A stretch of 64,000 bases of DNA from positions 1,054,001 to 1,118,000 of the forward strand of contig JAHHDT010000001.1 in assembly GCA_019739225.1 (NCBI GenBank). The letters are read 5' to 3'. Under the pieces are notes generated by a model that had not been told where the DNA came from, ran no database searches, and saw nothing but the letters and a program-made list of their open reading frames with translations. Shown in pieces: positions 22,953-35,544 of the stretch (the first letter of the stretch is position 1; the number at the start of each line of letters is the position of its first letter). Origin of the DNA: Aquamicrobium sp. Its GTDB lineage: Bacteria > Pseudomonadota > Alphaproteobacteria > Rhizobiales > Rhizobiaceae. Position numbers and translations under genes: made by a program.

Positions 22953-23321
22953 GAATTTCCAGCAGTATCGAAAGCCTGACGGTCGGCCCGGGCGGGTCGC
23001 ATGGCGTTTCAGGCATGTTCGTTGTCCGGCGGATTGGCGGCCGGAAGAGCCACCCGGACTTTCACCGGGTCCTGACGGGATGGGGGTGGTCTTAGGCAAT
23101 TCGTTGCTGCGCCGCAACATCAAATCCCGATCGCCACCACGTTCGCCGAGGCGTCTTCACGTCGGGCAACCCTCATGCTACCCAGAACTCGCTATGAAGT
23201 TCACATTCAAATCCTCCTCGACCTTCTTCCTGGGCTGAACCACGCGTTCAGGCCGGCGCATTGCGATGCGCCAGAAAGATAACGGCCCGGTTTCGCCAGC
23301 GGCCGAGCAGAGGATTTCGAC
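22953..23321. other. Divergent gap between sulP and the phytanoyl-CoA dioxygenase-like gene
   Basis: About 370 bases without a gene. The sulP-proximal half contains two GC-rich hairpins reading on the minus strand (separate entry). The dioxygenase-proximal half shows no clear signal beyond scattered AT-rich positions near 23190-23230. Confidence 0.6.
23025..23070 (-). promoter_or_regulatory. Structured mRNA leader upstream of sulP (riboswitch-like candidate)
   Basis: Reading on the sulP strand, two perfect 6-bp hairpins follow each other: ACCCGG/CCGGGT (23070-23065 with 23057-23052, loop TGAAAGT) and TCCGGC/GCCGGA (23045-23040 with 23030-23025). They lie about 75-120 bases before the sulP start. 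Alphaproteobacterial sulfate-transporter genes are known to carry an RNA motif called sul1; whether this is that motif was not tested. Confidence 0.4.
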
Positions 23322-32323: not shown

Positions 32324-32369
32324 GTCGTTTGCCACCTTGGCGAGGAAGCCCTGCGAGCATCTAGGGATT

Positions 32370-33845
32370 CTATCTGTAATGTATCTTCATCGCCTTATCG
32401 AAACACTGAACGGCGATCTCCGCCGCTTTGTATCTATATCGTCGCGTTTGCCTTGAAAAAATACGATCGAAATCAGAAAATGTACGACTTGCTCGCCGCG
32501 AATACTTAATAAAAGTCCAAGTTTTATATCCAATATCTTGATTAAATGTCACATCGCGCAACATTCGAAATTCGATTTCAGCATAATCATAATTGCTTCT
32601 AAGCCATACCGCTCCCTTTTCACGGTAGCGCTTAACAAAGTATCGCGCATGACCATAAGCAAATCGTTTAAGCTTGCGCCACGCGTTCGAGAGCGTTGAA
32701 TTTTTAATCTTCACTATGCGACCATTAAACTCGAATCCCAGATATTCCAATCCGTTGCGAACACCGTCTCCGAACACATGAGAGAATTGCAGCCCAGATG
32801 GCGTTACATCAAAGCGAGCGACCGTCACTTTCCGGTTCTGAATCTCGAGTTTTGAGCCATATTTTGCAATTTCATGCTGAAGCAAATTTTTCTCGCGAAG
32901 AAGGTTATCCCCCTCGGAAAATGGCATTACGATAACGATGTCATCGGAGTACCTCCGATACAGGCCGCCACCATTGCAACAATACCTGTGAAGATGGGCA
33001 TCAAAATTTAGAAGATAGAAATTAGCAATCAAATCCGATATAGGCGTACCTTGAGGTATACCATAATTTTTATTATTCTTCTGAATCAAGCTCGGATATT
33101 TGGGGTCTTTTCCGCAAATTCGATCTCTAAATTCCTTGGGACTACAAATCTGGCGATGACCCTGAGTTCGCATTGAGTCGATCTTGGCCATCCTTTTATC
33201 TTTTCGATTACCCGAGGTATTTTTTTTGTATAACTCAAGCCTCTTGAATACGGCGTCTCGATCAACAAATGTATACCTTGTTAGGGCACGAAATACAGCC
33301 TCGTGATCGGCAGGGAGAGGCTCGCCGATAAGATCCTCCCACATCACCCTTATCAGGCAATGATCCAAGCTTTCAAAATATGACTTGATATCAACTACCG
33401 TGACTACGCACCTACCTAGCTCGCGGATCTTTTCAAATACTTCTCTGGACAACTCTATATTTGACTTGTTTCCAGGTTTGTCGACATTGGCAATCCTTCG
33501 ATAGGCAATTGGAGCGTCTTGTATCCCCAGCTCCAACAACCTTCGTTCGTATTTCTTGGAAAGAAGCGCCCTGTACCTTGCAAAAATCGCCGCGTCTCTA
33601 CGAGCAGAATACCGGAGCGGTCGAACTTTTTTCTTACTGCTGGCATCTTTCCGGAATTTCACCCACTCCTCTTTAAACCGCAGGAGGGGATAGAACGAAT
33701 TTGCAGCTACCGCTTCCGGGCTATTGGCCAGTCGAACCAGCTCCGCAATCGGGATGTGTCGATCAAAATGCAGGTATCGCTTGACGTCTTTTTCTCTAGG
33801 TGTCCAGTTCTCAGCGTGAGTGGGGGTAGCAGCACCAATAGGCAT
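32370..33845 (-). CDS. drt2: DRT2-type defence reverse transcriptase
   Basis: Single-domain reverse transcriptase, 491 aa from the ATG at 33845. The catalytic core has the first Asp in VVDIKSYFESLDH (about residue 152), GIPQGTPISDLIANFYL (about 263-279) and the RYSDDIVIV box with the YxDD Asp pair (about 299-302). It has no maturase domain or retron VTG motif. The N-terminus (NWTPREKDVKRYLHFD) and stand-alone architecture fit the UG2/DRT2 anti-phage class, which uses an upstream ncRNA as template. The frame can extend to an ATG at 33896, but that start has no good ribosome binding site and lies 8 bases from the ncRNA template boundary, so 33845 was preferred. The gene is clearly AT-richer than its neighbours, a sign of transfer. 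Confidence 0.85.
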   Translation of the reverse strand: MPIGAATPTHAENWTPREKDVKRYLHFDRHIPIAELVRLANSPEAVAANSFYPLLRFKEEWVKFRKDASSKKKVRPLRYSARRDAAIFARYRALLSKKYERRLLELGIQDAPIAYRRIANVDKPGNKSNIELSREVFEKIRELGRCVVTVVDIKSYFESLDHCLIRVMWEDLIGEPLPADHEAVFRALTRYTFVDRDAVFKRLELYKKNTSGNRKDKRMAKIDSMRTQGHRQICSPKEFRDRICGKDPKYPSLIQKNNKNYGIPQGTPISDLIANFYLLNFDAHLHRYCCNGGGLYRRYSDDIVIVMPFSEGDNLLREKNLLQHEIAKYGSKLEIQNRKVTVARFDVTPSGLQFSHVFGDGVRNGLEYLGFEFNGRIVKIKNSTLSNAWRKLKRFAYGHARYFVKRYREKGAVWLRSNYDYAEIEFRMLRDVTFNQDIGYKTWTFIKYSRRASRTFSDFDRIFSRQTRRYRYKAAEIAVQCFDKAMKIHYR

Positions 33846-33864
33846 GGACAATACTACTACCCCC
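33822..33864 (-). promoter_or_regulatory. Strong hairpin at the ncRNA 3' side / start of the RT gene
   Basis: Eleven-base-pair stem (33854-33864 with 33822-33832; GGGGGTAGTAG against CTGCTACCCCC, one G-U pair) with a 21-base loop containing the ATG at 33845. It sits about 40 bases downstream of the presumed template and may be the 3' stem of the ncRNA, a translational control element for the RT, or both. Confidence 0.6.
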
Positions 33865-33916
33865 GCCAGTTCAGCACGGCATTTGCGCCGCTTCATCCTA
33901 GTTCAACGAAATGTGT

Positions 33917-33922
33917 TATACT
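33917..33922 (+). promoter_or_regulatory. Split promoter, -10 half (TATACT)
   Basis: TATACT near the beginning of the repeat unit. No suitable -35 lies upstream in the chromosome. In concatemeric cDNA joined at the AAC triplets it falls exactly 17 bp after TTGACA (34038-34043). Confidence 0.7.
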
Positions 33923-34037
33923 GTCGCTGTAGAAATCGGTCTGGCGATAGCCAGGCGGTGTCTACGGGCGCACAGCCAACTTGAAGGAGTAACCAGAATG
34001 ATCCAGCTATTCGCGTCGCTGCTGACTGTTTGTCCTA

Positions 34038-34043
34038 TTGACA
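34038..34043 (+). promoter_or_regulatory. Split promoter, -35 half (perfect TTGACA)
   Basis: Perfect consensus -35 hexamer near the end of the repeat unit, 115 bases downstream of its matching -10 in the chromosome. It becomes functional only across a repeat junction (spacer 17 bp). Confidence 0.7.
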
Positions 34044-34150
34044 GTTTAAACAACTGACTCGCTGCGTTACTAGCGATCCGATGGCCGAAGCCACGTTCGG
34101 GAACCCCCGCTAAATCGATCTAAGTATTCGATCGTGGCACTTCAAGTTCG

Positions 34151-34178
34151 AGATTAGACATTTTTCGCATGCGGACAA
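34151..34178 (-). promoter_or_regulatory. Possible promoter of the DRT2 ncRNA
   Basis: On the RT strand, TTGTCC (34178-34173) and TAATCT (34156-34151) are spaced by 16 bases. Transcription would start near 34145, just before the first stem of the ncRNA. The match is moderate. Confidence 0.4.
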
Positions 34179-34191
34179 AAACGGTGCGGTA

Positions 34192-34965
34192 TCATCCGAC
34201 GCTTTCCACCTCCTTCTTCCTCGCCCTTTCCAGCTTCCCCTGCGCCTTCCTGATCCGCGTCGCGGCTTCCTTCGCCTTGTCGCCGTCCATTGCCTCGCGT
34301 TTGATCACCTCGTGCTCGATCAGCGCGGCAAGGTTCTCAGGCGCGACCTTGAGGTCGGGAAAGAGCCGCCGCAGCTCGCGCCGCACCACGGCGACGACCG
34401 GCTCCGAGCGCAGGATCGCGGCAACGGTGAACCGATTGAACAACTGCGCCTGTTGATGGAAGGCGTCCATTGCATCCGTCGTCAGCCCTTCCTTGGCGAA
34501 GAGGAACATCTGCCTCAGATGATCCTCGTTCCTCGGCGTCATGTCGGGAAGGATGAAGCGGCAGACTTCCTCGTGGCTGATCTGGTTGGAAACGTAGATG
34601 CGGATCAGCCGCCACTCGACCGCGTTGGTCAGGATCACCCAGTGAATGCCCTGATGCGCGCCATAGTCGATCACCTGCCGCAGGTGGTTGTCGGCAAGAC
34701 TGCTTCCCGCCGACTTCACCTCGATGAGCAGGCGCAGCTTGCCCCCGATCCTGATCGCAAGGTCGCAATAGGTCGCCTTGATCTGGTGTTCCGATGTCAG
34801 CTCTTCATATTTGTCGTAGCCGAAGACGTCGGCCAGAATATCCTTGACCACGGTGACAGTATCCGCCTCCGCCACGTCGGCCTTTTGCTGCGCGATTGCC
34901 ACGCGTTGGTATTTCTTCAGGTTGGCGCCAACCCGATCGACGAACTTCTTCGGCAGCTTGCTCAT
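34192..34965 (-). CDS. Stand-alone HsdR-N (type I restriction endonuclease N-terminal-like) protein
   Basis: A 257-aa protein with a PD-(D/E)xK nuclease-like core: YCDLAIRIGGKLRLLIEVKSAG (about residues 67-88) carries the Asp and the ExK. The context NAVEWRLIRI is also typical of HsdR N-terminal domains. No helicase domain and no hsdM or hsdS are nearby. The C-terminus is a charged helix. It is GC-rich like the chromosome, unlike the adjacent RT, so the two need not share an origin. Role is unknown; defence or DNA-end processing is possible. Confidence 0.8.
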   Translation of the reverse strand: MSKLPKKFVDRVGANLKKYQRVAIAQQKADVAEADTVTVVKDILADVFGYDKYEELTSEHQIKATYCDLAIRIGGKLRLLIEVKSAGSSLADNHLRQVIDYGAHQGIHWVILTNAVEWRLIRIYVSNQISHEEVCRFILPDMTPRNEDHLRQMFLFAKEGLTTDAMDAFHQQAQLFNRFTVAAILRSEPVVAVVRRELRRLFPDLKVAPENLAALIEHEVIKREAMDGDKAKEAATRIRKAQGKLERARKKEVESVG

Positions 34966-35092: not shown

Positions 35093-35293
35093 ATGACCAA
35101 GCTTGAAAAAATCGAGCGGGAGATCGAGGCGCTCGGCCCCGAGGAGCTCTCACATTTCCGCGCGTGGTTCGCCGCCTTCGATGCCGCCAATTGGGATGCC
35201 CGTATCGACAGCGATGCTGCGTCCGGAAAACTCGATGCGCTGGCCGAACGGGCTCTCACCGCCCACCGCGACGGCCGCACGCGTCCACTGTGA
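35093..35293 (+). CDS. Putative antitoxin of a type II toxin-antitoxin pair
   Basis: A 66-aa acidic protein: a short N-terminal helix (KLEKIEREIEALGPEELSHF), a central segment AWFAAFDAANWDARI and a C-terminal ALAERALTAHRDGRTRPL. It ends in a GTGA overlap with the downstream RelE/ParE-like gene, the standard antitoxin-first arrangement. Confidence 0.82.
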   Translation: MTKLEKIEREIEALGPEELSHFRAWFAAFDAANWDARIDSDAASGKLDALAERALTAHRDGRTRPL

Positions 35294-35544
35294 ACCATTT
35301 CGCCACTGCCGATTTCTGGGATTGCTACCAGAGATTGCCAGCGGCGGTCCAAAGAATTTCGGATCGCAACTTCGAACGGCTGAAGGCCGATCCTTACCAC
35401 CCTTCACTGCATTTCAAACAGGCTGGCCGTTTCTGGTCGGCTCGTGTCGGCCTCCAGTACCGCGCGCTGGCCGTCAGGGATGGGGACGACATGATCTGGT
35501 TCTGGATTGGCACGCACGCCGATTATGACAGGCTTGTGGGCTGA
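35290..35544 (+). CDS. RelE/ParE-like toxin
   Basis: An 84-aa protein beginning at GTG 35290, overlapping the antitoxin stop (GTGA). The family pattern is ADFWDCYQRLPAAVQRISDRNFERL, then LHFKQAGRFWSARVGLQYRALAV and WIGTHADYDRLV, the last matching the RelE/YoeB-type C-terminus. Probably an mRNA interferase, although catalytic residues in this family vary. Confidence 0.85.
   Translation: MNHFATADFWDCYQRLPAAVQRISDRNFERLKADPYHPSLHFKQAGRFWSARVGLQYRALAVRDGDDMIWFWIGTHADYDRLVG

Follow-up and report, generated by a model that had tools for sequence, protein, structure and literature searches.

The 64,000-nucleotide stretch of Aquamicrobium sp. DNA analysed here, referred to as the window, very probably carries a divergent DRT2-like antiphage system, predicted from sequence comparisons to assemble a promoter and an endless neo gene through the concatemerization of a template. 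In the proposed mechanism, the reverse transcriptase (RT) would bind an RNA, presumably transcribed just upstream of its own gene and from the same strand, and would copy a 144-nt template lying between two GUU motifs. The nascent cDNA, ending in AC, would anneal to the second motif, where the template begins, and synthesis would start anew, giving a head-to-tail concatemer; re-priming of this kind is suggested by the conservation of a dinucleotide at the join. Once the concatemer is double-stranded, each junction would set TTGACA 17 bp before TATACT, forming a promoter absent from the chromosome, and a reading frame provided with a ribosome-binding site and an ATG would run through every junction without meeting a stop. 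By analogy with Neo in the Klebsiella pneumoniae system KpnDRT2, the frame would encode a hydrophobic protein of helical repeats, halting the growth of infected cells. Reverse transcription, transcription and toxicity are steps that we infer for this locus. The rolling-circle interpretation, first advanced in a sequence-only reading of the region, is supported by the assignment of the RT to the Drt2 family and by the layout of homologous loci, among which the outcome named there as contradicting it did not occur.

Features of the locus are listed in Table 1. All the motifs named in the sequence-only reading are present where it had placed them. On the plus strand of the chromosome, opposite to the RT, TATACT lies upstream of TTGACA, the frame is closed by stops on both sides (TAG at 33899, TGA at 34055), the open stretch extends from 33902 to 34054, and a further AAC is found at 34052. 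When position 34051 is joined to 33908, the claimed unit of 144 bases is obtained, with 48 sense codons and a 17 bp spacer.

Table 1. Features of the DRT2-like locus, in window coordinates.
Feature	Coordinates	Strand	Basis or remarks
Whole DRT2-like cassette (RT and ncRNA)	32328-34205		blastn against L117
RT ORF, Drt2/UG2 family, YSDD active site	32370-33896	-	PADLOC, NCBIfam, alignment A1, PDB match
Predicted ncRNA (5' handle, template and 3' scaffold)	33792-34096	-	approximate extent; conserved alignment A2; model R1
Long scaffold hairpin, perhaps equivalent to the "tower"	33822-33864	-	covariation
Small scaffold hairpin, perhaps equivalent to the "buttress"	33876-33891	-	80% of cells paired, six sequences
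Stem perhaps closing the template, 3' arm	33920-33925	-	pairs with 34040-34045; RNAalifold on A2
5' handle hairpin	34059-34076	-	5 pairs in six sequences
Junction motif copy 2, AAC, flanking the template start	33905-33907	+	
Template region / putative neo repeat unit (cDNA strand)	33908-34051	+	144 bases, 48 codons, stop-free
-10 half, TATACT	33917-33922	+	
Ribosome-binding site, AAGGAG	33984-33989	+	
Putative neo start codon, ATG	33998-34000	+	54 nt before the junction, 8 bases after AAGGAG
-35 half, TTGACA, of the junction-assembled promoter	34038-34043	+	
Junction motif copy 1, AAC (GUU in the ncRNA), ending each repeat	34049-34051	+	

The RT ORF matches the Drt2 model PDLC03757 of PADLOC with 398.1 bits (E=1.7e-119), and scores 275.2 with PDLC02173; the next family, RT_UG17, follows at 58.4 (E=1.4e-16). 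The solved structure of the KpnDRT2 RT (PDB 9c0i) also matches the window RT (E=2.7e-51). With the NCBIfam equivalog model of Drt2, NF041746, the score is 318.7, below the cut-off of 390 bits, as it is for five relatives from the long clade to which the window belongs (320-367); the short alphaproteobacterial relatives L027 and L015 reach 403.8 and 384.6, and three canonical Drt2s 575-598. The assignment to DRT2 made in the sequence-only reading therefore holds for the family but not for the KpnDRT2 type, as neither the NCBI cut-off is reached nor is the ACA motif of that type present. By these comparisons the window RT is a divergent Drt2/UG2 enzyme. In a tree of 90 RT rows, 87 of them different, computed with IQ-TREE and drawn with a midpoint root, a clade of 76 rows, including the window, is split from canonical Drt2s by a branch with 100/100 support. 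The rows nearest to the window come from Brucella tritici, Rhizobium oryziradicis and Agrobacterium leguminum, followed by an alphaproteobacterial genome (L010) and by Aureimonas (L029); the long clade is largely alphaproteobacterial, to judge from record titles.

The aligned part of the window RT begins near the W encoded at 33806 (alignment A1). The long scaffold hairpin falls inside the ORF as drawn from the ATG at 33896, so that the start of the RT is likely to lie further downstream: the ATG at 33896 is an improbable start, and the RT probably begins later. In two other loci the RT gene is interrupted, by a TGA in L014 (with its second piece L017) and by a TAG in L004; in both, the template unit is still in frame and stop-free.

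The regions upstream of 101 loci were scanned for comparable units; 80 of these loci are the best 80 of 162 confirmed relatives. A search of viral contigs gave one locus. Weak hits (L006, L007, L009), second pieces (L008, L017), L013, whose upstream region reads N, L024, cut at the record end, and L109-L112, among which L111 is a short-type RT, were left out. A first scan, requiring the promoter geometry and a shared dinucleotide at a fixed place and ignoring the frame, found a candidate in 84 out of 101 loci. In 71 of these 84 the top-ranked candidate kept the frame and contained no stop; at least one of the 71, in the canonical-side locus L105, is surely a wrong pick. A position-weight scan, trained on 70 loci selected as open and sharing the junction dinucleotide, located units in 88 of the 101, 83 of them endless. 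Removal of two units scoring below 20 (L025, L094) and of nine duplicates left 77 distinct units, 96 to 152 nt long; L014 and L004 were retained despite their interrupted RTs because their templates are whole.

Such a comparison of homologs had been suggested in the sequence-only reading, and its outcome agrees with what was expected there. In 72 of the 77 units, the length is a multiple of three and no stop interrupts the frame defined by the junction codon, the shuffled expectation for a stop-free frame being 0.126. Of the two remaining forward frames, one is open in 2 units and the other in 1, although the TGA within TTGACA is enough to close one of these frames. As 62 of the 77 units belonged to the training set, the 15 others were counted separately: 10 are endless. 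One unit, L036, is ambiguous: it is counted as endless at 129 nt, and would be 130 nt long and out of frame if joined at its own AAC. The -35 element lies 8 nt before the junction in all the 77 units (exact in 67, with one mismatch in 10), a place favored by the scan that located them; the best -10 match lies 9 nt after the junction in 71, so that the spacer is 17 bp in 71 of 77. The loci are related, and the counts are accordingly not independent.

The position-weight matrix found no unit in 13 loci (L020, L021, L026, L043, L055, L069, L078, L100-L105), of which L069 has just 69 nt of upstream sequence. Reading by eye revealed endless units in L043 (123 nt), L078 (141 nt) and L021 (120 nt), and no convincing unit in L055 and L020.

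A selection-free check was provided by picking, in 95 distinct upstream regions, the best split promoter with no regard to homology or frame. A unique best pick was obtained in 57 regions, ties in 30 and none in 8. Among the 57, 45 units are divisible by three, where a third is expected by chance, and 38 are endless in frame 0, where about a twenty-fourth is expected from the shuffle rate; 19 are not endless, some of them representing wrong picks.

A structured upstream ncRNA with scaffold hairpins is a feature of the KpnDRT2 type, and covarying hairpins are found in the RNA predicted for the window. In six close loci, the handle, the template-closing stem and the two scaffold hairpins are largely kept. 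For the handle hairpin, every cell with letters is paired, three pairs are changed on both sides and one pair is gapped in four of the six sequences. The long hairpin was also followed in 40 loci taken from the 77: all of its 11 pairs show changes on both sides somewhere, 91.9% of cells are paired, and its covariation score is 0.571, compared to 0.267 in shuffles. Inspection by eye suggested that GAGT, in the 5' handle, might pair with ACTC, beyond the long hairpin; this pairing was rejected, being incompatible with the handle stem.

The scaffold model R1, which includes the window row itself, scores 65.8 bits at 33792-33907 and was run on 39 sources. For 24 held-out long-clade loci (L012, L019, L031, L035-L038, L043-L045, L055, L060, L064, L067, L068, L070, L077, L078, L085, L089, L092, L095, L106, L108), two of which, L108 and L077, have close kin within R1, 15 plus-strand matches were found at the expected place with E below 1e-3, and 2 more below 0.05. 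In the remaining 7 of the 24 no match was significant: L095, L078 and L092 gave weak ones, L012, L019, L089 and L106 none. With E up to 5, R1 had no match in seven canonical-side loci (L026, L100-L105), nor in L005, L015, L016, L020, L021, L025 and L027. At the same limit, Rfam had no match in region 33700-34250. At gathering threshold, its sole match in the whole window is a sul1 RNA, a riboswitch-type element (RF03058) at 23020-23075 on the minus strand.

Several properties of the frame bear on whether it is coding. The frame 0 peptide is more hydrophobic than stop-free shuffles in all of the 72 endless units (mean GRAVY 0.67 vs -0.21), and in 71 of them it surpasses the other two forward frames in hydrophobicity; one minus-strand frame averages 0.37, and the other four frames are below zero. 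T occupies 38.5% of second codon positions, against 16.7% and 20.6% of first and third ones. A start codon preceded by a Shine-Dalgarno-like word of at least four letters occurs 30-80 nt before the junction in 64 of the 77 units, as counted with lenient words and without a control. Substitutions show no excess at third positions (248, 361 and 311 at positions 1, 2 and 3, in 57 non-independent pairs), giving no sign that one amino-acid sequence is being held. In our reading, at the level of sequence comparison, selection keeps the repeat open, hydrophobic and helical without fixing its sequence, a view which agrees with the account of Neo in the consulted portion of Wilkinson et al. (PMC12039810). 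A single 48-residue repeat, modelled by AlphaFold2, is predicted to form two main helices arranged as a helical hairpin, with modest scores (mean pLDDT 73 for the best of five models, pTM 0.36).

The same data bear on the main rival explanation, in which the repetitive cDNA would act as DNA, as in DRT9 and DRT10, with no gene involved and with the motifs being structural elements of RNA or DNA. ACTGTC and GACAGT, beside the promoter halves, can pair to form the template-closing stem, with at least 4 of 6 pairs kept in 65 of 77 units, and part of the motif conservation could thus reflect an RNA stem; the lack of codon-position bias in the substitutions would also fit. Yet the TT of TTGACA and the TAT of TATACT are conserved though they lie outside the stem, the enrichment of T at second codon positions would not be expected, and the 17 bp spacing, the ribosome-binding site with its ATG, the divisibility by three and the lack of stops would all be left unexplained. 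We regard this explanation as unlikely, and assembly of a promoter and a neo gene at the junction as the preferred one.

The two copies of the motif at which the RT would jump read GAC/AAC in 39 of the 77 units, AAC/AAC in 23, GAG/AAG in 6 and TAC/AAC in 5, while the four remaining units each show a pair of their own. Both copies agree at the next-to-last letter in 77 out of 77 and at the last in 74, an agreement partly due to the construction of the scan. With the promoter-only pick, the identity between the two ends of the unit peaks at these same positions (42 and 44 of 57, against 28 for the runner-up), and the whole dinucleotide is common to both ends in 38 of 57 (AC in 34, AG in 4). Ten of the 11 AAG rows form one clade in the tree, where both copies have changed together; the eleventh, L063, reads GAC/AAG. 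The location of the join proposed in the sequence-only reading is supported; the homology conserved at it is of two bases, AC or AG, not of the three named there.

The same comparison favors, as had been argued from the spacer, a unit of 144 bases over one of 147. A jump at the second AAC, or some other join, would leave the mechanism unchanged, and the 147-base unit, besides resting on a 4-nt homology (CAAC), would also be open and in frame. It would however stretch the spacer to 20 bp, whereas homologs hold 8 and 9 nt around the junction, and near relatives L034 and L066 are without the second AAC: a different unit is accordingly very unlikely.

The probability of the arrangement arising by chance was estimated on 4,000 dinucleotide-preserving shuffles of the surrounding 600 bases, on both strands, defining a split promoter as an exact TTGACA and a TATAAT with at most one mismatch, with spacer 17, unit length 90-200 and 3 nt of homology. 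The shuffles gave 41 matches, of which 4 kept the frame and had no stop either, or about 0.001 per region; under the same definition, the 64-kb window holds this single case, both strands considered. A coincidence beside an RT, already judged improbable in the sequence-only reading, can be dismissed almost entirely: a frequency of about 1 in 1,000 per 600-bp region has to be set against the many places inspected, but tens of diverged homologs show the same layout, and they do so under the promoter-only pick as well.

Five of the 77 units are not divisible by three: L029 (152 nt), L083 and L097 (130 each), L099 (122) and L106 (125). In all five loci the RT frame is open. The frame crossing the junction stops 66-90 nt later, near the next ATG, defining ORFs of 38-48 codons: the stop lies between 13 bases ahead of the next start codon and 7 bases beyond it, with stop-to-ATG gaps of 5, 1, 13 and -4, the last corresponding to an ATGA overlap in L106, and -7 for L099. 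The stop lies within -5 to +20 nt of the next ATG in 4 of these 5 units, compared to 28.6% of 2,196 simulated deletions of one or two bases in endless units; at such a background frequency, the reading of these units as finite genes is weakly supported. On the tree, the exceptions need five changes, at least four of which are forced by well-supported branches. Four of the five come from metagenome-assembled genomes, and the endless frame would be restored in L083 and L099 if the 5' join were moved by one base. Finite neo genes are one possible explanation of these units; decay of the template, misassembly or a join displaced by a base are others.

Tentatively, and with more doubt than confidence, the window may be seen as belonging to a second, old DRT2 lineage, with a distinct jump code of two letters (AC or AG) and a scaffold peculiar to it, in which the join was recoded while the assembled promoter and gene were kept, and in which, in several lineages, the endless gene turned into a finite, stop-terminated ORF of 38-48 codons across the junction. 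Were this so, concatemers of finite units would be tandem arrays of small genes rather than one endless gene, raising the question of whether endlessness is needed at all.

The mechanism published for KpnDRT2 follows the same strand logic (Tang et al. 2024 preprint, PMC11100668; Wilkinson et al. 2024, PMC12039810). As far as described in the portions of these sources that were used, the window locus shares with it an RT gene without further domains, a template lying upstream on the same strand, with neo on the opposite one, and a promoter running antisense to the ncRNA, whose -35 and -10 halves are separated in the chromosome and come to lie 17 bp apart where repeats join. Also common to both, on the same basis, are a unit that is a multiple of three, with a stop-free frame across junctions and a ribosome-binding site before the ATG, and a hydrophobic repeat predicted to be helical. 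The jump motif is different: the ACA-1 and ACA-2 motifs that flank the KpnDRT2 template are absent here, where AAC or AAG (GUU or CUU in the ncRNA) is found on the cDNA strand in place of TGT (ACA in the ncRNA). The bases around the junction are divided as 8+9 nt, against about 5-6 and 11-12 in KpnDRT2, by arithmetic from the paper and from L101 and L102; these two canonical relatives carry TGT close to the corresponding position, spaced differently. The unit is 144 nt long, against 120, and the RT has 478 aa, counted from W31, against 425. The scaffold may also differ from that of the canonical side, none of whose seven loci is matched by R1.

The short alphaproteobacterial Drt2s (Rhizobium L027 and its kin L005, L015, L016 and L021) have the AAC junction and the 8+9 spacing in common with the window, with endless units of 120-129 nt (L021 as read by eye), but their RT is shorter, they fall on the canonical side of the tree and they are not matched by R1. 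DRT9 and DRT10 resemble the window system in combining an RT with an ncRNA to make repetitive cDNA for defence; DRT9 makes a homopolymer and DRT10 tandem-repeat DNA, and the relevant portion of the source (PMC12632851) does not describe that cDNA as a gene.

According to the parts of Tang et al. (PMC11100668) considered, ncRNAs are predictable in divergent DRT2 clades, Neo annotation is "more challenging" there, and alternative mechanisms are suggested. A different jump motif could be the reason for this difficulty: the gene-assembly logic would be the same in a divergent clade once the motif is read as AC or AG, making Neo annotatable there. Natural motif swaps would also become available for testing how the RT jumps. 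The AC/AG motif is absent from the consulted passages of PMC11100668, PMC12039810, PMC12596737 and PMC12632851; figures, supplements and the final Science version may record it.

The surroundings of the locus were compared by blastn with a genome of the same genus, G1239 (L117). The two sequences align as far as 32327, after carB, and again from 34206 onwards. Between the two breakpoints G1239 carries 2.0 kb with an OLD-type AAA-TOPRIM gene, a nuclease (L117:164-2095; Pfam OLD-like_TOPRIM 2e-17, PADLOC Old 1e-55), located between carB and an HSDR_N-like gene, at the site occupied in the window by the RT cassette. Replacement of the whole cassette suggests that RT and template move together, and that the site also takes another defence gene. 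Among eight genomes of the genus searched, the window's genome alone has a match to its RT clade at E 1e-30. The gene next to the cassette, at 34192-34965 on the minus strand, lies nearly all within the stretch kept in the same-genus genome, with 96% DNA identity, and has a weak match to HSDR_N_2 (23.3 bits, with a Pfam cut-off of 25). Further on, at 35164-35544 on the plus strand, a ParE-like toxin domain is found, scoring 25.9 bits against a cut-off of 24.4.
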